A stretch of DNA of 38,671 nt from IMG/VR virus record IMGVR_UViG_3300005919_000003, positions 1 to 38,671 of that record. The stretch is one strand, 5' to 3'. Positions 5,603 to 22,598 of the stretch are shown here, in pieces. The translations under genes were made by a program, and so were the position numbers. The DNA comes from a virus. Position 1 is the first letter of the stretch. The number at the start of each line of letters is the position of its first letter. The notes below the pieces were generated by a model. It was not told where the DNA came from. It made no database searches and saw only the letters and a list, made by a program, of their open reading frames with translations.

Positions 5603-5679
5603 GCCGATATAGCTCAGCTGGTAGAGCAGTGGAAGTTGTAATCCACGTATTGTCGGGGGTTCGAGTCCCTCTATCGGCT
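5603..5679 (+). tRNA. tRNA-Thr-like (anticodon TGT), unusual loops
   Basis: Cloverleaf elements: acceptor GCCGATA/TATCGGC, D-arm GCTC...GAGC with AGCTGGTA, T-arm GGGGG-TTCGAGT-CCCTC. The anticodon stem GTGGA/TCCAC encloses an eight-base loop AGTTGTAA rather than seven, and the variable region is eight bases (GTATTGTC) rather than about five. With U33 as the first T the anticodon is TGT (Thr). CCA is not encoded. The overall tRNA identity is strong; decoding is uncertain because of the extra loop base. Confidence 0.75.
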
Positions 5680-5701: not shown

Positions 5702-5767
5702 GCCCTGGGCGTCAATCTAACGCGTATAGATTGGACGTTTCGCTGGTTCAATTCCAGCCTGGGGCCA
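5702..5767 (+). tRNA. tRNA-like element lacking a normal D-arm
   Basis: Seven-base acceptor GCCCTGG (5702-5708) pairs with CTGGGGC (5759-5765, two G-U pairs), followed by CA. The T-arm is perfect: GCTGG-TTCAATT-CCAGC (5742-5758). Between them only 33 bases remain. They form one long hairpin (CAATCTA/TAGATTG with loop ACGCGTA) or, alternatively, a short D-like arm GCGT/ACGC, but not both. The anticodon position lacks U33. It is either a decayed tRNA or a tRNA mimic; aminoacylation identity cannot be assigned. Confidence 0.5.
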
Positions 5768-5781
5768 TGCCCTTACTTTTT

Positions 5782-9494: not shown

Positions 9495-10870
9495 TGTCCG
9501 ACGAAGATACCACGCAGAGCGAACGATACACCGATATAGAAAAGTATCGTGGATACTATAATGGCGACCTTGATAAGCACTACACCGGATTTAAGGATAG
9601 GTTTTCCAATAAAGCATCGACCGATACTGATATCATAGCTAAAGAGGCCGTGCCAGTCCAAAATGAAATGCGCGTGGTTATCCAAAAGCGCAACGCCCTA
9701 GTCCCCCTGGACCCGATTAATATCACAGTGATGAAGGACGGCGAAGAGGACGAAAAGCTAACCGAAGAGGCTCAAACATGGGCGAATAATGATAACTTTG
9801 AATCTGGCGTAACGTTAAATGAAGCCGTATCCACGTATTATGAGCGCGGCGTGGTTGACGGGGAAGCTCCTGTATTAATGCGCCTTAAGGACAACACGCC
9901 CAAGGTGCGCATGATTGACGATCTGGGCTTCGAAATCAACACGGACCCGGAAAACATTGACAACATCAGTGCCTACGTCAAGTCGTATCACTCTAACTCA
10001 TATGTGACCGATGAAGATAAGGACGCAACGTCAACCGTAAACGTAATTAGAACGATCACGGAAAAGGATGTCGTTACAACCGTCGGCGGCGGAGCGTCAA
10101 AGACAGTCCCCCACAACTTCGGGTTTATACCCGTTGTTCTGTTTAAACGTGAGGAGATCCTAGGCGATCCGCACGGACGCCCCCTGCCTACCGATCTATT
10201 GGAGGCACAGGACAATTTAACCCGTGTCAACCTTGAGATTGCCCGGGCCAATAAGTACGGTCCTTGGGGCTTATATTGCCGCGAAGAGGGTGGTGGTAGT
10301 GGCGGATCATTGGCCGATGGTAATGTGACATTTCAGCCTGGTACGCTTTGCGATTTCCCAATCAAGAAAGTATCCGGCAACGGAGCCGACGATTCTTTAT
10401 ACAAAGAGAAAGACCAATATGAGATTCACCTGTATAGCCTAGCCGGACTGAAAAAGACCACGCAGGACAACGTAGGGCAGACCGTCAACACATCAGGCAA
10501 GGCCCTCGTTATTCTAAACGCAGAAGGCCGCGCACAGGTGGCTAAGGAGCGCACAAGGCTTGCTCGCTTCGTTGCTCGTATCGTTGAAAACAGCCTGATT
10601 ATGACTAAGAAGATCGGGATAGATGACCGGGACAAGATCCGGGTTATCGTTGAATTCCCGAGTATGGAACAAGATGACCCGGCGCATACCTTAGAGGTCG
10701 CCAAGATGCTTGATTTAATGGGACACTCTAAGGAGGCATTGCGCCAAATGGGATTCGAAGATGAAAAGATAGATTCTTTATATGAAGAGCAGGATGAGGC
10801 CGGCGGTCCACTTTTGGATGAGATGAGGGACGCCAACGCTAAACAACAGGAAGAGGATGAGGGGGAATAA
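9494..10870 (+). CDS. Portal protein (SPP1 gp6-like)
   Basis: Dodecameric ring at the head vertex through which DNA enters and leaves. The 458-residue length and the stretch VPHNFGFIPVVLFKREE followed by DLLEAQDNLTRVN are typical of SPP1/DUF935-like portals. It lies after terL and before the gp7-like minor head gene. The C terminus is very acidic and probably disordered (QQEEDEGE). Its stop overlaps the next ATG by one base. Confidence 0.88.
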   Translation: MSDEDTTQSERYTDIEKYRGYYNGDLDKHYTGFKDRFSNKASTDTDIIAKEAVPVQNEMRVVIQKRNALVPLDPINITVMKDGEEDEKLTEEAQTWANNDNFESGVTLNEAVSTYYERGVVDGEAPVLMRLKDNTPKVRMIDDLGFEINTDPENIDNISAYVKSYHSNSYVTDEDKDATSTVNVIRTITEKDVVTTVGGGASKTVPHNFGFIPVVLFKREEILGDPHGRPLPTDLLEAQDNLTRVNLEIARANKYGPWGLYCREEGGGSGGSLADGNVTFQPGTLCDFPIKKVSGNGADDSLYKEKDQYEIHLYSLAGLKKTTQDNVGQTVNTSGKALVILNAEGRAQVAKERTRLARFVARIVENSLIMTKKIGIDDRDKIRVIVEFPSMEQDDPAHTLEVAKMLDLMGHSKEALRQMGFEDEKIDSLYEEQDEAGGPLLDEMRDANAKQQEEDEGE

Positions 10871-15178: not shown

Positions 15179-16456
15179 ATGAATTTCAAACATACTCTTT
15201 TCATTTGCCTTGCCATTATATTGGTTGGCGCGCTTGCTTATGCTGGCACTACCCACTTTACGGCACTAGAGGCTGAAGATATCACAGCAACCGACGACAT
15301 GTCTTGTAATGACGACATGACGATTGGTGGCGATCTTACCGTTACCGGCGCGTTTTCAACCGCAGCTATTAGCCTAGGCGACGATGAGCCCCTTAATTTT
15401 GGTGCAGTGCCGGACGTTATTTGCAAATATGATGAGGCTGGCACCGACAGATTGCTTTGTACTTTCGCCGCCGCAAGCGGGCTTAACGTTGCGACTGGTA
15501 ACATGTTTGTTGGCAATGGCGTACCTCTTCATACCCCCGATGGCGAAGATTTTTATGTAGAAGGATCATCCGAGCTTACAGGACACGTTTATACTAAAGC
15601 TAACGTTTACCTTGTAGACGATGCAATCCTCGCCTTTGGCCAATCTAATGACGCTTATTTCTGGTATGATGAAGCCACAGACGACCTCTTTAAGCTCACC
15701 GTAGCAAGCGCCGCAGGTGGATTACAACTTCAGGTCGGTAATCTCTTTATAGGCAACGGTAGCCCGGGCCAAACTATTGATGGTGAAGATCTTTATGTAG
15801 AGGGTTTGGCCGAAATTGACGGCATCCTTTATGCTGACGGTGGCATCTCTACCGCCGCCGATATTTCCGCCGGTGAAGCTACTCTCACCGCTATCGTTCT
15901 TGGCGACGATGAAGAGATCGCAATGGGCGCAGACGATGATTGGTCCATTAAAATGGATCCTGACGCCGGTGATTCTCTAGTCATTGAAGCCGCCCTCGCT
16001 ACTCAGTACGCCGTTATTACAAAGGGAAACTTCGGTATTTCCGAATCAGCCATTAGCCCGGATCATGTTGGTAACGGTCAGGATCTTTACGTTGCTGATG
16101 CTATTGAAATTGACGGGACCGCCTACTTTGATGGCGATGTCAGCTTTGGCGGTGGGCAGTCTGTTAATGTAGCCAAGATCGTAGCCGGGACACATACCCT
16201 CGCGGCAACTGATTATATCCTTTCTTGCGATTACACCGCGACCGACACCGTGACGATTACTATTCCATCCGCACAGATTGCATTGTCGGGCCGGATCATT
16301 GTTGTCAAGGATTCTGGTGGTAATGCTGCATCCAAGAATATCACGATTAGTACTGAAGCGTCCGAAACTATTGACGGTGCTGGAAACTTGGTATTGTCCG
16401 CTGATGACGACTCTGTGAACCTGTATTCTGATGGCACCAACCTGTTTGTGTGGTAG
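15179..16456 (+). CDS. Structural repeat protein with Sec-type signal peptide
   Basis: 425 residues. The N terminus has a classic signal peptide: basic start (MNFKH), a hydrophobic core to about residue 20 and a likely cleavage after AYA (residue 22). The mature part has three repeats of about 75 residues (about 66-138, 145-218, 241-317), each with an LGDD-like opening and an ending like GEDLYVEGLAEIDG. A C-terminal beta domain (about 340-425) reads IIVVKDSGGNAA and LYSDGTNLFVW, typical of phage fibre or decoration proteins. It lies between capsid and connector genes, so a head fibre is plausible. A signal peptide on a virion gene is unusual. Confidence 0.7.
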   Translation: MNFKHTLFICLAIILVGALAYAGTTHFTALEAEDITATDDMSCNDDMTIGGDLTVTGAFSTAAISLGDDEPLNFGAVPDVICKYDEAGTDRLLCTFAAASGLNVATGNMFVGNGVPLHTPDGEDFYVEGSSELTGHVYTKANVYLVDDAILAFGQSNDAYFWYDEATDDLFKLTVASAAGGLQLQVGNLFIGNGSPGQTIDGEDLYVEGLAEIDGILYADGGISTAADISAGEATLTAIVLGDDEEIAMGADDDWSIKMDPDAGDSLVIEAALATQYAVITKGNFGISESAISPDHVGNGQDLYVADAIEIDGTAYFDGDVSFGGGQSVNVAKIVAGTHTLAATDYILSCDYTATDTVTITIPSAQIALSGRIIVVKDSGGNAASKNITISTEASETIDGAGNLVLSADDDSVNLYSDGTNLFVW

Positions 16457-16465
16457 GGGTTAACA

Positions 16466-16594
16466 ATGGCTTACACGGGCGGACATTTAGAAGAGATCGG
16501 GGCCGGTATAATTGGAAGGGCTGTAAATGCTACCCTTTACGTTTCGCCCAACGGGACCACCGTTGGCGTTTGGCTTGAAATCCAGGAGATATAA
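16466..16594 (+). CDS. Hypothetical 42-aa protein
   Basis: Tiny frame between the repeat protein and the connector gene, with its stop abutting the next ATG. The composition is Gly-rich with beta-like patterns (ATLYVSPNGTTVGVW). Only a weak ribosome site (AGGGGT) is seen. It may be a small fibre or head-associated peptide; unknown. Confidence 0.5.
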   Translation: MAYTGGHLEEIGAGIIGRAVNATLYVSPNGTTVGVWLEIQEI

Positions 16595-16801
16595 ATGTCC
16601 ACTCTAGCAGAATGCAAAACCAACCTGGCAGCCGTTGAGGCCGAGATGTTAAAGGCTCCCAAAAACCCGGATACGCGAAACGTAGACGTGAAAAAAAAGA
16701 TCGAAGGACTTTTGACGCTTGCGCAGTATTGGACCGCTCAAATTAACTCTAAGTCGGGACCGAGAAAAATACTAATAGGCGGGATTGATAGCGATGATTA
16801 A
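16595..16801 (+). CDS. Putative head-tail joining protein (gpW-like)
   Basis: 68 residues, the size of lambda gpW, with two predicted helices (LAECKTNLAAVEAEM and VKKKIEGLLTLAQYWTAQI) and a basic linker, the gpW layout. It is preceded by AGGAG and positioned between capsid and tail-completion genes, where a head-completion protein is expected. Sequence similarity is only by pattern, so this is an inference. Confidence 0.5.
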   Translation: MSTLAECKTNLAAVEAEMLKAPKNPDTRNVDVKKKIEGLLTLAQYWTAQINSKSGPRKILIGGIDSDD

Positions 16802-17703: not shown

Positions 17704-17931
17704 ATGAACTTTCAGTTTACGCAGATGAAATGTCCTTTTGATATGCTTATGGACGTTGTGCCAATTAAGGCCGATAGCCTCCAATGGATTCACAACGACG
17801 AAGTAGGCCGGTTTGAAATTGACGGGTGGAAGGTTGTGGAACTTGAAGCACAACCCGAGCCCGAAAAAGAAGAATCTAAACCAGAAAAAAAAGACACTAA
17901 ACCCAAAGAAGAAAAGAAAGGTGGTAAATAA
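17704..17931 (+). CDS. Hypothetical protein with Pro/Glu/Lys tail
   Basis: 75 residues: a folded front of about 50 residues (with WIHNDEVGRFEIDGW) and a low-complexity tail (PEPEKEE...KPKEEKKGGK) shared in style with the 43-residue protein at 15047-15178. Its stop overlaps the tail tube ATG by one base. Possibly a small virion or assembly factor; unknown. Confidence 0.65.
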   Translation: MNFQFTQMKCPFDMLMDVVPIKADSLQWIHNDEVGRFEIDGWKVVELEAQPEPEKEESKPEKKDTKPKEEKKGGK

Positions 17932-19286
17932 TGGCCACAGCATTGGGACGCAATAGCAAGACATATTTTGTCACCCAACCCGTTTACGAAACCGCAGTAG
18001 CCCCCACGGGGGCAGACGCTGTTAAAATGAAAAGTAAGGTTGTTTTTACGGCAACCCAAAACGCCGAAAACCGGGACGATTATCACCCGTCCACCCGCGA
18101 TATCATGGATGAGACCACCCTTGAGGAGTCCTATGCTGTAACATGCACAGCTTACCTGCTCGGCGCTGGTACCCAGGGCAACGCACCTGATTATGACGCC
18201 GGTTTGCAGACTATGTTTGCAACCGAAGATATCGCCGCAACTACCGTTGCCGCCTCACCCGCGCCTACAGTTTCCGCTATCAAATTGACCGCTAACTATA
18301 TGGATGCAGGGGATATTGGGAAGATCGCCAACACCACGGGCGCCACAACGGAAAATAAATATTTCACAGTGGTATCAAAAGATGGCAGTGATGTTCTGAC
18401 CATTTATCCGCCCTTAGATACGGCACCCACGGCAACGGATGTAATCAAGGCGGTTCGCAATTATACACTAGAAGCGGACAACACCAACGTTATTACTATT
18501 CATCAGTCCAATAACCTCACAGGACAAATGGGCATTGGGGTTAAGTTTAATAAATGCACGATCAAAGTCTCCAAGGGCGCAACTGGCGAAATCCAATTCG
18601 AGGGGTTTGCCCGTGACGTAATTAGGTCCGTTCATACCACGCTTAATGGCGCCGTTACCGCGACTGATTTAACCGTAGCCGTTTTCAAAAAGGGCATAGA
18701 GGCGGGCGCTATTCTGAGGATCACGGACGCCGTTAATGGTGACGAAACCGTTACAGTTACATCGGTTGACGCTACTGGGTTGATTCTTACCTTATCCGCA
18801 GGGCTTGGTTTCCTGCATCCAGACGAGTGCGTCATTGGACCTTACGAACCCGCTGCCACCACGGCCGGAACTCCTATTCGTGGCTTGTGCGGTGGTGTTT
18901 CCATGGGTGATGATGGCGACTTCATCAAAGCAGACGAGTCTACCATCATGGTTGACGAAAAAACCGAACCCGAGACCTACATGGGCGACTGTGGAAAATC
19001 AAAGGGAATTACCAACGCACAAGACCGGGAAGTATCCTATGAGTGCCTTTGCTACCTGGATGACAATTCGGTATCACAGGCCGTTACAGCCGCCGCCAAT
19101 AGTCAATTGAAAACATTCCAGCAAAGCGGTGCCACCGATGGTAGGGGCTTCGCGGCTTACTTGCCACTGGTACAATACGACCCGGCTGAAATTCCCGATT
19201 CGAAGGGTGAGATTATCAAGACTACTTTCAAGTCTAGGGTTTGCCTTGGATCTAGTGGCGAAGATTCTATTAAGTTGGCCTTTTAG
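17931..19286 (+). CDS. Major tail (tube) protein
   Basis: 451-residue beta-rich protein, expected to form the hexameric tail tube rings. The N terminus (ATALGRNSKTYFVTQ) and the central Ig-like stretch (TDLTVAVFKKGIEAGAILR followed by a TVTVTSVD strand) fit large siphovirus tube proteins with added surface domains. It follows the tail terminator and precedes the chaperones and tape measure. The long middle insertion (about 90-330) may be exposed on the tail surface. Confidence 0.75.
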   Translation: MATALGRNSKTYFVTQPVYETAVAPTGADAVKMKSKVVFTATQNAENRDDYHPSTRDIMDETTLEESYAVTCTAYLLGAGTQGNAPDYDAGLQTMFATEDIAATTVAASPAPTVSAIKLTANYMDAGDIGKIANTTGATTENKYFTVVSKDGSDVLTIYPPLDTAPTATDVIKAVRNYTLEADNTNVITIHQSNNLTGQMGIGVKFNKCTIKVSKGATGEIQFEGFARDVIRSVHTTLNGAVTATDLTVAVFKKGIEAGAILRITDAVNGDETVTVTSVDATGLILTLSAGLGFLHPDECVIGPYEPAATTAGTPIRGLCGGVSMGDDGDFIKADESTIMVDEKTEPETYMGDCGKSKGITNAQDREVSYECLCYLDDNSVSQAVTAAANSQLKTFQQSGATDGRGFAAYLPLVQYDPAEIPDSKGEIIKTTFKSRVCLGSSGEDSIKLAF

Positions 19287-19312: not shown

Positions 19313-19630
19313 ATGAAATTGCCGAGAAGGCACAGGATTGGTCCGTATAATTACAAACTTATACCAAGAAAGGCCCCAACTGAAGAGTCTGTTGGTAGTT
19401 GCGAGCCCAGAATATCAAGAATCCAGGTAAACAAGGAGTTGAGCGGTCGCTTTTTACTTGTAACAATAATCCATGAGGACCTACACGCCGCCTTTGACGC
19501 TATTGGTCGCCAGGATCTTTATACCGACGAGGCGCTAGTTGATAGTCTTGCCGGGGTTTTAACCGGCCTTCTCCTGGACTCTCCAAACTATCTTGAATTC
19601 TTAATGGAAATACGCGATGAACACAAATGA
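19313..19630 (+). CDS. Small HEXXH putative metallopeptidase
   Basis: 105 residues with a clear HEDLH zinc-binding motif at 54-58 in IIHEDLHAAFD, preceded by strands like those of minimal ImmA/IrrE or SprT-type peptidases and followed by an acidic helix with Glu73 (DEALVDSLAGVL), a possible third ligand. Comparable small HEXXH proteins are known in phages. It lies between tail tube and tail chaperone genes, where a protease is unexpected; a role in tail processing or host regulation cannot be told from sequence. Good ribosome site AGGGG. Confidence 0.7.
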   Translation: MKLPRRHRIGPYNYKLIPRKAPTEESVGSCEPRISRIQVNKELSGRFLLVTIIHEDLHAAFDAIGRQDLYTDEALVDSLAGVLTGLLLDSPNYLEFLMEIRDEHK

Positions 19631-19757
19631 CCAGCTAGAAATTGAACTAAGGGACCTCATGCGTGAGGTATCCCTGTTGCGAATGGAGTTAAGCCGCGTG
19701 AGTGATGAACAAACGCGACTAGAACAACGAATGAAAAAGTTAGAAAATAAGGGGTAA
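19617..19757 (+). CDS. 46-aa coiled-coil peptide
   Basis: Short helical frame overlapping the end of the metallopeptidase gene by 14 bases. It has a heptad-like Leu/Met/Val pattern (LEIELRDLMREVSLLRMEL) over almost its whole length, so a parallel coiled coil is likely. It ends five bases before the chaperone ATG. The weak ribosome site makes expression less certain. Confidence 0.5.
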   Translation: MNTNDQLEIELRDLMREVSLLRMELSRVSDEQTRLEQRMKKLENKG

Positions 19758-19762
19758 ACATT

Positions 19763-20176
19763 ATGGGCTTAGACCTTAAATCAACAGAAAAGTACATTCC
19801 GCTTTTTGGCGACCAACGAAAAGAGCACAAAGAAGATCCGGATTACAAACCGGTAACAATCCACATCAGAAAACTATCCGACCGAGTGTATAAGCAATAC
19901 GTACTCGATCAAGCAAATACGCTGGAAAAGGAAGGCGAAAACCGCAAGGTAACGATTCAAACATTTGACGGGCAAGCTCAGCTCTTTTGCGATCATGTTT
20001 TTAAGATCGAAAACTTAATGCTGGATGGTAAGCCCATTGAAACGGGCGAGGCTTTAATCCATAGCGAGTTCGCACCGCAGGGCCTTGTGTCGGAAATTGA
20101 AGATGCGCTGGTCGATCTTTCCCAACTCTCAAAGGCCGAAGTAAAAAACTTGCCCGCGTCGCTACCGCAAGATTAG
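19763..20176 (+). CDS. Tail assembly chaperone (G-like), zero-frame product
   Basis: 137-residue protein in the lambda G position, directly before the tape measure gene. It should bind and hold the tape measure protein during tail assembly. The N-terminal domain is typical in composition (VTIHIRKLSDRVYKQYV) and the gene ends in TAG at 20174-20176. A slippery heptamer A AAA AAC at 20143-20149 lets a fraction of ribosomes enter the -1 frame and make the longer G-T form. Confidence 0.8.
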   Translation: MGLDLKSTEKYIPLFGDQRKEHKEDPDYKPVTIHIRKLSDRVYKQYVLDQANTLEKEGENRKVTIQTFDGQAQLFCDHVFKIENLMLDGKPIETGEALIHSEFAPQGLVSEIEDALVDLSQLSKAEVKNLPASLPQD

Positions 20177-20199
20177 GTTGCGGCTACTCGTGTAGCGAC
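20143..20199 (+). promoter_or_regulatory. Programmed -1 frameshift site (slippery heptamer plus stem-loop)
   Basis: A AAA AAC at 20143-20149 is in the correct phase of the upstream frame (gtA AAA AAC). Eight bases later a structure begins: GTCGCTAC (20158-20165) pairs perfectly with GTAGCGAC (20192-20199). Inside it CGCAA (20166-20170) pairs with TTGCG (20178-20182), leaving a nine-base bulge, and the zero-frame TAG lies in the inner loop. Confidence 0.88.
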
Positions 20200-20532
20200 G
20201 TGGACTTTGAAAAACCGTGCCGTGGAGACGACGATTTGATGCTGGTTCGTAATTGTGATGGCACGGGCGAACCGCAAATCTTTGAGTGTGAAGAATTTGA
20301 ATGTTGCCCAGTGGCCTGGCTATCAAAACACCCGGCGGAAACGTTCATATTTAGCGTATGGAAAAGCTGCCTAGGCGGCGTTTTAACCAATGGAATGGGC
20401 GTGGTTAACCCCGTGATCCACCTTCCGTTTGACGGCAAAGTAACCGATCAACCGCACAATATCTTACAAGCTTTTAGTGTCCTGACAGGCCAAGTCGAAA
20501 AAATAATAGAGCTAAATAGAAAAGAAAAATAA
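20149..20532 (+). CDS. Tail assembly chaperone T domain, made by -1 frameshift (G-T fusion)
   Basis: Part of the -1 frame that is fused to the first 129 codons of the upstream gene after slippage, giving a predicted 256-residue G-T protein. The domain carries a Cys-rich start (LGCGYSCSD), the ECCPVAWLSKHPAE block and a helical end. The only separate start nearby is GTG at 20200, which has no ribosome site, whereas the frame is open well upstream of the slippery site. This matches the lambda G/GT arrangement. The stop overlaps the tape measure ATG. Confidence 0.82.
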   Translation, partial: LARVATARLGCGYSCSDVDFEKPCRGDDDLMLVRNCDGTGEPQIFECEEFECCPVAWLSKHPAETFIFSVWKSCLGGVLTNGMGVVNPVIHLPFDGKVTDQPHNILQAFSVLTGQVEKIIELNRKEK

Positions 20533-22598
20533 TGGGCAAAAAAGGAAACGTAAAGGTTAAATTATCCTTAAATGATAAGCTTACACGCGCTATGCGTGGC
20601 CCACTTGGCACGATGAAGTCATTCGGAAGGTCTGTTTTTTCGTTACAGGGCCTCTTACTTTCTGGCGGTATCGTCTATGGCCTAAAAAAGATCACAGACG
20701 CATCCAAGGAACAGGAAAACGCAGAGCGAAAACTTGTCCATATAATGAAAACAATTAACGGAGCCACCGATGAACAAATAAACGCCCTAAAAGAACAGGC
20801 ATCCGCACTTCAAACGACAACAAGATACGGGGACGAAGCTACGCTAGCTAGTATGGCATTATTAGGAACGTACAAATTAAATTCGGATGCAATTTCAAAA
20901 CTTACGCCACTAGCTCTTGATATGGCTGAAGCTTTAGAGGTTGACGCCAAGACCGCGTTTATGCTTTTAGGGCGGGCGGTTTCGGGACAGGCATCCATGT
21001 TGACTCGATACGGTATCCAGCTGTCGGAAACGGAAAAAAAGATCCTTTCAACGGGCACGTCATCGGAAAAAGTAGCCGCCCTTGTTGAAGTCCTGGGGGT
21101 GCGGTTTGGCGGTACGGCTGAAGCAATGGGAAAATCTTGGGAGGGCGTGGTTGCGAGGCTGTCTAATTCAAAGGGTGACATTGCAGAAGTTTTCGGGGCG
21201 TTAATAACAAACAACGAATCCGCGAAAGCGGCTATTACGAGCCTATCGGAATCCTTTGAAGATTTAACTGAAAATATTAAGGGCGACCTGGGCGAGGCCA
21301 ATGGCTTCGTGAGTACTTTTGTTGAAACTATCGCCGTGGGCATTGGAGAGGCCGCAACTGTTATTTTTGGCCTTGCCAAGGGAACCAATTCGCTAATGGT
21401 CGCATGGAGTGGTATTACTGGTGTTAAAAATGCGGCTCAGGGATTTATGGCGGGTGGTGCGCAACAGGCTAAATTATCACTCGATCAAATGAATGAAGAA
21501 TTTGATAAATATGGTAAAAATCTAAGATACATAGAAAGCACACAGGAATCCGTAGCCGAGGGTGTAAAAAAGGCACTTGAGGCGATTCGAGCTGTCCGTG
21601 GTGAAGGCGCAAAGTCTCTTGATATTCCAGGCAGCGGAAAAGACGGTACCAGCAAAGACGCGGCCAAGGCTGCCGAGGGGAAAGGCGGCGTGGACCAAGG
21701 CCCCGACTACACCAACCTGTTTAATGTACTGGATATCCTTGTGCAGATGAACGACACATACGAGGATCAATCCGAGGCTATCCGCTCTATTGAGATAATG
21801 ACAGCCGATTCTTTTGACGCTCGAATCATGCAGATTGACGATGAAGAAAGCGCGCTGATTGAAAAGTATGGAACCGACGAACGCATGGCAGCGTGGATTG
21901 AACAGGCAAAGCTTTATTATACTAGTGAACGCCTTAAAATAATAGGTGAAAAAACAGACGAACTGACGAAAAAAGAAAAAGAAAACCTCGCGCTGCTTGA
22001 TAAGTGGACGGGGAAAGCAGTGGGCATTTCCGGTGTTGTATCTGGAACGATGAACCAGGTTTACGCACAGGTTGGCTCTACTCTCTCAACCGGCATTGTG
22101 GACGGTATGTGGGAATGGGAACAGGCCGGTAAGGCCGTGCTGAAATCCCTCATTAGCGTCCTGGCGCAAATGCTTTTAATTGCAGCTGTAAAGGGTACTA
22201 TAAACGCAATGACTGGTGGATCGTCATTTGGCATTGGTTTCGTAGCCTCTCTTGTGTCTCACTCTGGCACTGACAACATGCAGCCCAACGGGCGGTATGC
22301 GAGACACCACGACGGGCTACCCATGGGAGCAAACGAGTACATGGGCATCTTTGAGGGCGGTGAAGGCATGGTGAATAAGCGATCCATGCAAAGGCCTGGG
22401 GTGCGTGGCGCGGTGAACGCATTGAACAACGGGCAATCCGCTGGTGGGAATTCGGTAGTATTGACCGTCTCGCCTATTTACAACATTTCAACAATTGACT
22501 CTAATGGGTTTGAGGGTTTACTGCGGAAGAACAACAAAGCACTAATGAACACTATTAAACAGAATCTAAACGACCGAACCTTTAAGGTAGCGAGTTAA
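20532..22598 (+). CDS. Tape measure protein
   Basis: 688-residue protein that sets tail length and is ejected with DNA. It has a helical N-terminal part with a hydrophobic patch (about 35-50), long charged helices to about 480, a hydrophobic region around 535-575 (LISVLAQMLLIAAVKG), then a C-terminal GGEGMVNKRSM-type tail seen in lambda-like tape measures. At about 1.5 angstrom per residue the tail would be about 100 nm. It follows the chaperone pair, as expected. Confidence 0.88.
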   Translation: MGKKGNVKVKLSLNDKLTRAMRGPLGTMKSFGRSVFSLQGLLLSGGIVYGLKKITDASKEQENAERKLVHIMKTINGATDEQINALKEQASALQTTTRYGDEATLASMALLGTYKLNSDAISKLTPLALDMAEALEVDAKTAFMLLGRAVSGQASMLTRYGIQLSETEKKILSTGTSSEKVAALVEVLGVRFGGTAEAMGKSWEGVVARLSNSKGDIAEVFGALITNNESAKAAITSLSESFEDLTENIKGDLGEANGFVSTFVETIAVGIGEAATVIFGLAKGTNSLMVAWSGITGVKNAAQGFMAGGAQQAKLSLDQMNEEFDKYGKNLRYIESTQESVAEGVKKALEAIRAVRGEGAKSLDIPGSGKDGTSKDAAKAAEGKGGVDQGPDYTNLFNVLDILVQMNDTYEDQSEAIRSIEIMTADSFDARIMQIDDEESALIEKYGTDERMAAWIEQAKLYYTSERLKIIGEKTDELTKKEKENLALLDKWTGKAVGISGVVSGTMNQVYAQVGSTLSTGIVDGMWEWEQAGKAVLKSLISVLAQMLLIAAVKGTINAMTGGSSFGIGFVASLVSHSGTDNMQPNGRYARHHDGLPMGANEYMGIFEGGEGMVNKRSMQRPGVRGAVNALNNGQSAGGNSVVLTVSPIYNISTIDSNGFEGLLRKNNKALMNTIKQNLNDRTFKVAS

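Follow-up and report, generated by a model that had tools for sequence, protein, structure and literature searches.

The G/GT tail assembly chaperone frameshift of phage lambda was reportedly described by Levin in 1993 and by Xu in 2004. Frameshifting of this kind is conserved in long-tailed phages (PMC5009743), and in lambda G and the G part of GT bind the tape measure protein while T binds the tail tube protein, with G and GT made at a ratio of about 30:1 (PMC5009743). We analyzed a candidate locus of this type in a 38,671-nucleotide stretch of viral DNA (IMG/VR record IMGVR_UViG_3300005919_000003, positions 1 to 38,671; hereafter the window), in which the features of the locus all lie on the plus strand. 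Like lambda, the window has the predicted order major tail protein, G, T and tape measure, with the putative −1 shift near the end of G, and its T frame overlaps the start of the tape measure gene (lambda T spans 10115-10549 and H begins at 10542). However, the lambda slip site is G GGA AAG, whereas that of the window is A AAA AAC followed by a strong covarying stem. There is no detectable sequence similarity between the two loci, and the window T is Cys-rich.

The heptamer itself has precedents. According to the excerpted text of PMC3556154, AAAAAAC is the slippery sequence of phiCbK and its relatives, and the phiCbK pre-tape-measure chaperones gp93/gp94 share it with the window in the same place before the tape measure gene; no sequence relation to the window was detected, and a downstream stem is not mentioned for phiCbK in that text. 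A AAA AAC also lies at the G/T junction of the tail chaperone genes of Acinetobacter phages Loki and IME_AB3 (PMC5313236) and of g-t in the haloarchaeal virus HCTV-2 (PMC5009743), all with sequences unrelated to the window. With these earlier reports, the suggestion of the initial annotation that this particular heptamer was worth recording is not supported. IS911-like insertion-sequence signals combine an XXXYYYZ heptamer and a downstream hairpin, as here, with an upstream Shine-Dalgarno-like GGAG (PMC4066793), as in the relative L007 introduced below; they serve to make transposase, whereas the window signal would make a tail protein. On E. coli ribosomes A AAA AAC is a weak motif of low efficiency (PMC4066793), a ranking that may not hold for the host of the window virus. 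The class is thus long known and the heptamer not new, and the site is very probably a well-supported additional natural case. On its sequence features, we assign it with high confidence to the programmed −1 frameshifts of the lambda G/GT type that govern tail assembly chaperones.

The predicted G-like chaperone is encoded by an ORF of 137 aa (19763-20176) that begins with ATG and has a good Shine-Dalgarno sequence (duplex −8.5; Shine-Dalgarno strength is given throughout as the energy of the duplex with the anti-Shine-Dalgarno sequence, in kcal/mol, against a background mean of −2.1). The slippery heptamer AAAAAAC occupies 20143-20149, and a codon of this ORF begins at 20144, so that the zero frame reads GTA AAA AAC across it and yields A AAA AAC, the phase required for tandem −1 slippage. 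The zero frame ends at a TAG (20174-20176), while the open −1 frame spans 20101-20532 and overlaps the tape measure start. Beyond the slip it encodes a Cys-rich, T-like domain of 127 residues (20149-20532), giving a predicted GT fusion of 129 + 127 = 256 residues. The phase of the heptamer, a −1 frame open from before the slippery site and the lengths of the two products (137 and 256 residues) had all been proposed in the initial annotation, and each was reproduced.

Downstream of the site lies the tail tape measure gene (20532-22598), which matches phrog_339, tail length tape measure, with an E value of 2.7e-11 (PHROGs) and also the annotated tape measures of several phages. Upstream of G, a 451-aa product (17931-19286) is 34% identical to its positional counterpart in L007 and is, from its location, a putative tail tube protein. 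The order is therefore tube-like gene, G, T and tape measure. Of the two ORFs that immediately precede the tape measure gene, T overlaps G in the −1 frame, and the overlap contains an XXXYYYZ heptamer in phase. Elsewhere in the window we found matches to tailed-phage proteins, namely a Terminase_6N terminase, an SPP1-type portal and a Mu gpT-like capsid protein, which mark the virus as a tailed phage. G and T have no match in Pfam, PHROGs or PDB, and their AlphaFold models, built on alignments of two to three sequences, are of low confidence (pLDDT 44 and 35), so the tail chaperone role is argued from gene order and organization. A tblastn search with G, T and the tube-like protein returned no homologue among 50,697 phage records. 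Between the tube-like gene and G, the window has two small ORFs (19313-19630 and 19605-19757) that are absent from the relative, in which G directly follows the tube gene; one matches phrog_1233, of unknown function, and the other is a 50-aa coiled-coil-like frame.

A strong stem-loop follows the heptamer. A perfect 8-bp Watson-Crick stem (20157-20164/20193-20200) begins after a spacer of 7 nt (20150-20156), and not eight bases after the heptamer as first described. In the minimum-energy fold, the last 3 nt of this spacer form three extra outer pairs (20154-20156/20201-20203), one of them G-U, which extend the outer stem to 11 bp (20154-20164/20193-20203) and shorten the spacer to 4 nt; the 8-bp outer stem of the initial annotation is thus present and can grow further. 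The inner stem, with the 5' arm CCGCAA, has 6 bp (20165-20170/20178-20183) rather than the 5 originally counted. It closes a 7-nt apical loop (20171-20177) that contains the zero-frame TAG, in agreement with the earlier placement of the stop, and a 9-nt bulge (20184-20192) lies on the 3' side. Stimulators usually start 5-8 nt past the heptamer (PMC4066793), and the window stem, which begins inside this range, is both stronger than chance and conserved. When a pseudoknot was sought from the apical loop or the bulge, only 5-6 nt of complementarity without a conserved partner was found. No plus-strand terminator was called at the hairpin, and a terminator-like match here lies on the minus strand.

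We then compared the site with every XXXYYYZ heptamer in phase with the presumed genes of the window (n = 65). None of the others is followed within 60 nt by so strong a fold as the heptamer at 20143 (−26.8, against −20.8 for the runner-up) or opens so long a −1 frame (129 codons, against 74), and this heptamer adjoins the zero-frame stop, with 33 nt to the last base of the stop. Its fold energy falls in about the lowest 0.1% of 60-nt windows across the whole contig. For the 66-nt stretch 3' of the heptamer, ΔG is −26.8 kcal/mol and z is −3.2, with 2 of 200 dinucleotide shuffles folding equally well; across the window and the relative, z scores against such shuffles were −3.2, −3.7 and −5.2. 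Among synonymous recodings of the same −1 peptide, 25 of 2000 fold as well for the window and 5 of 2000 for the relative.

Relatives were sought by scanning IMG/VR with queries and alignments of G, T, the tape measure, tube, portal, terminase and capsid proteins. These scans gave only the same virus, a pair of contigs, L006 and L007 (together IMG/VR 3300013120_000203 and its near-copy 3300009314_000323), and, for terminase, a 4.3-kb contig, L008, in which no G was found; scans of GTDB genomes for relatives returned none. L006 and L007 came from the terminase search (46% identity) and are nearly identical contigs of a different virus; only two independent lineages with the site were found. Several phages with similar capsids (Alcaligenes QDWS535, Roseobacter CRP-901, Manatee Spring virus and 023Pt_psg01) differ in the tail region and were excluded as frameshift comparisons, and phage R4C shares part of its tape measure with the window and has a single annotated chaperone. 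In both contigs (coordinates of L007), the tube-like gene is followed by a G-like ORF (15739-16263), then by a T-like ORF that lies in the −1 frame of G (16305-16673, counted from the first ATG) and finally by an ORF where a tape measure gene would be expected; G and T are 29% and 31% identical to those of the window, T being compared from the slip codon. Both contigs carry A AAA AAC in the same phase (16242-16248 in L007, 11901-11907 in L006). Relatives without a slippery heptamer had been named as evidence that would count against a frameshift, and the opposite was seen.

The conservation of the split also bears on whether it could be an assembly or sequencing error in a single gene, or a coincidental layout. 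As an uncurated metagenomic contig, the sequence leaves room for such an artifact, yet a second contig, L003, carries a sequence identical to that of the site, the same split, phase and stem recur in a diverged virus, and the combination is unique among the 65 in-phase heptamers, so that we give an error or coincidence a negligible probability.

The G/GT-type frameshift predicts a defined point at which the two frames change roles. From the slip codon on, the −1 frames of the two viruses align without gaps, KKLARVATARLGCGYSCSD against KKLRKVIAALIKCEFSCYD, with 9 of 19 residues identical; this match covers the 57 nt before GTG 20200, and for the 17 residues after KK the shuffle p value is about 1e-5. 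Over the 11 codons immediately preceding the slip, the −1-frame residues of the two viruses show no likeness, whereas the zero-frame residues there are similar; translation of the −1 frame solely beyond the heptamer would leave this pattern. Protein-level conservation of the fusion frame thus starts at the slip codon, and it includes the residues C-x-[YF]-S-C-x-D, which precede GTG 20200, the earliest candidate for an independent start. The T domain has six cysteines at aligned positions 13, 17, 26, 38, 55 and 76 after the slip (window 20143-20532, L007 16242-16673), a pattern that suggests a metal-binding domain.

The residues C-x-[YF]-S-C-x-D lie upstream of all candidate starts and so weigh against T being a separate gene, translated without frameshifting from a start of its own (GTG 20200 or TTG 20236/ATG 20239) through reinitiation past the G stop or coupling to it. 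GTG 20200 is 24 nt past that stop, which speaks for a separate start, but its duplex energy (−1.5) is no better than background, nor are those of the L007 T ATGs at 16305 and 16353 (0.7 and 0.4). A better signal, GGAG (−6.4), precedes TTG 20236/ATG 20239 in the window but has no L007 counterpart, and the product from there would miss the first conserved cysteines. We consider a separately started T very unlikely as the sole explanation. The initial annotation, which saw no good start for the −1 frame, was right about GTG 20200 but overlooked the possible start after GGAG, and an internal T start at 20236/20239 could operate in the window beside, rather than instead of, the programmed frameshift. 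Upstream of the heptamer, L007 has a Shine-Dalgarno-like GGAG at 8 nt (−6.6, in the best 5%) that could, by analogy with IS911-type signals, act as an extra stimulator; the window has a weak AAAGG 7 nt upstream (20131-20135; −3.2, within background), for which the same role is possible.

The stems of the two viruses were superposed through the gapless −1-frame protein alignment, at an offset of 3901. The 12-bp stem of the relative, GGUCAUAGCAGC/GUUGUUAUGACC, falls in the same pairing register as the window stem, and nine consecutive pairs can form in both viruses (window 20157-20165 with 20192-20200), compared with four in the next best register; in the minimum-energy fold of the window itself, 20165 pairs with 20183 and not with 20192. 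Of the nine shared pairs, four have compensatory changes in both partners, one differs in a single partner and four are unchanged, with none broken, and sliding the partner by 1-3 positions destroys the shared pairing. Since synonymous recoding alone recreates the eight core pairs in 0.6% of draws for the window and 2.6% for the relative, the covariation taken by itself is moderate evidence. Conservation is confined to the outer stem; the inner stem and the bulge are peculiar to the window, so the two-part bulged structure stressed in the initial annotation is not a shared feature, and the zero-frame stop, in the apical loop of the window, lies in the 5' arm of the relative and hence has no conserved place. 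The comparison of heptamer and stem in related phages that had been proposed as a check thus returned the same heptamer, in the same phase, with the outer stem in register.

A stem kept at ribosomal spacing is also informative about RNA polymerase, which might yield the −1 product by slipping on the A6 run in place of the ribosome. The homopolymer is present and is kept in the relative, but transcript slippage in bacteria usually requires longer runs, of about 8-9 or more, and it can do without both the in-phase XXXYYYZ pattern and the conserved stem, which makes polymerase slippage extremely unlikely. The initial reading of a lambda G/GT-class ribosomal frameshift is supported by the position of the site, its phase, the in-register covarying stem and the onset of −1-frame homology at the slip codon.

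We infer that slippage occurs, how often it does and what G and GT do along the following lines. Most ribosomes would read G to the TAG ending at 20176 and release the 137-aa chaperone. A minority would be held up by the stem 7 nt downstream while AAA occupies the P site and AAC the A site; the two tRNAs would re-pair one base back (AAA AAA), and translation would go on in the −1 frame to 20532, producing the 256-aa GT. On the lambda model, coating of the tape measure protein would fall to G, and the scarcer GT would bring in tail tube subunits. As A AAA AAC is of low efficiency in E. coli, a strong conserved stem beside a weak heptamer would be a sensible means of setting a low ratio, and the stem probably helps to set a suitable, low G:GT ratio. 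The tape measure ATG overlaps the T stop (TAATG, window 20529-20545), and its Shine-Dalgarno sequence (−0.9) is weaker than background, whereas that of lambda H is good (−10.3). With this overlap and almost no Shine-Dalgarno sequence, mainly ribosomes that had slipped at 20143 would start the tape measure. A speculative and rather unlikely extension is that the frameshift also sets tape measure output in this way and that the Cys-rich T binds metal; if true, chaperone fusion and ruler synthesis would be coupled.

The case comes from a virus group without close named relatives, and it places a heptamer that is weak in E. coli beside a stem kept in exact register across proteins that are about 30% identical. 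Because the register is conserved, the role of the stem can be tested by breaking and restoring the pairing. The site also helps to annotate G and T genes that family libraries do not recognize.

Further observations were made in passing. At the contig end of L007, an ORF (40-342) consists of DNA gyrase A C-terminal repeats (PF03989, E 3e-24) and is possibly a phage gene or a host junction. In the window, 5702-5768 forms a tRNA-like fold that has a 7-bp acceptor, a canonical T-arm (GGUUCAAUUCC) and a long anticodon-like stem capped by a 7-nt loop but no room for a D-arm; neither ARAGORN nor Rfam called it as a tRNA. A tRNA gene lies at 5603-5679 (Rfam, 53 bits). The loop closed by its anticodon stem GUGGA/UCCAC, AGUUGUAA, has 8 nt in place of 7, and the gene reads like Thr-UGU plus one extra base; 8-nt anticodon loops are typical of frameshift-suppressor tRNAs.
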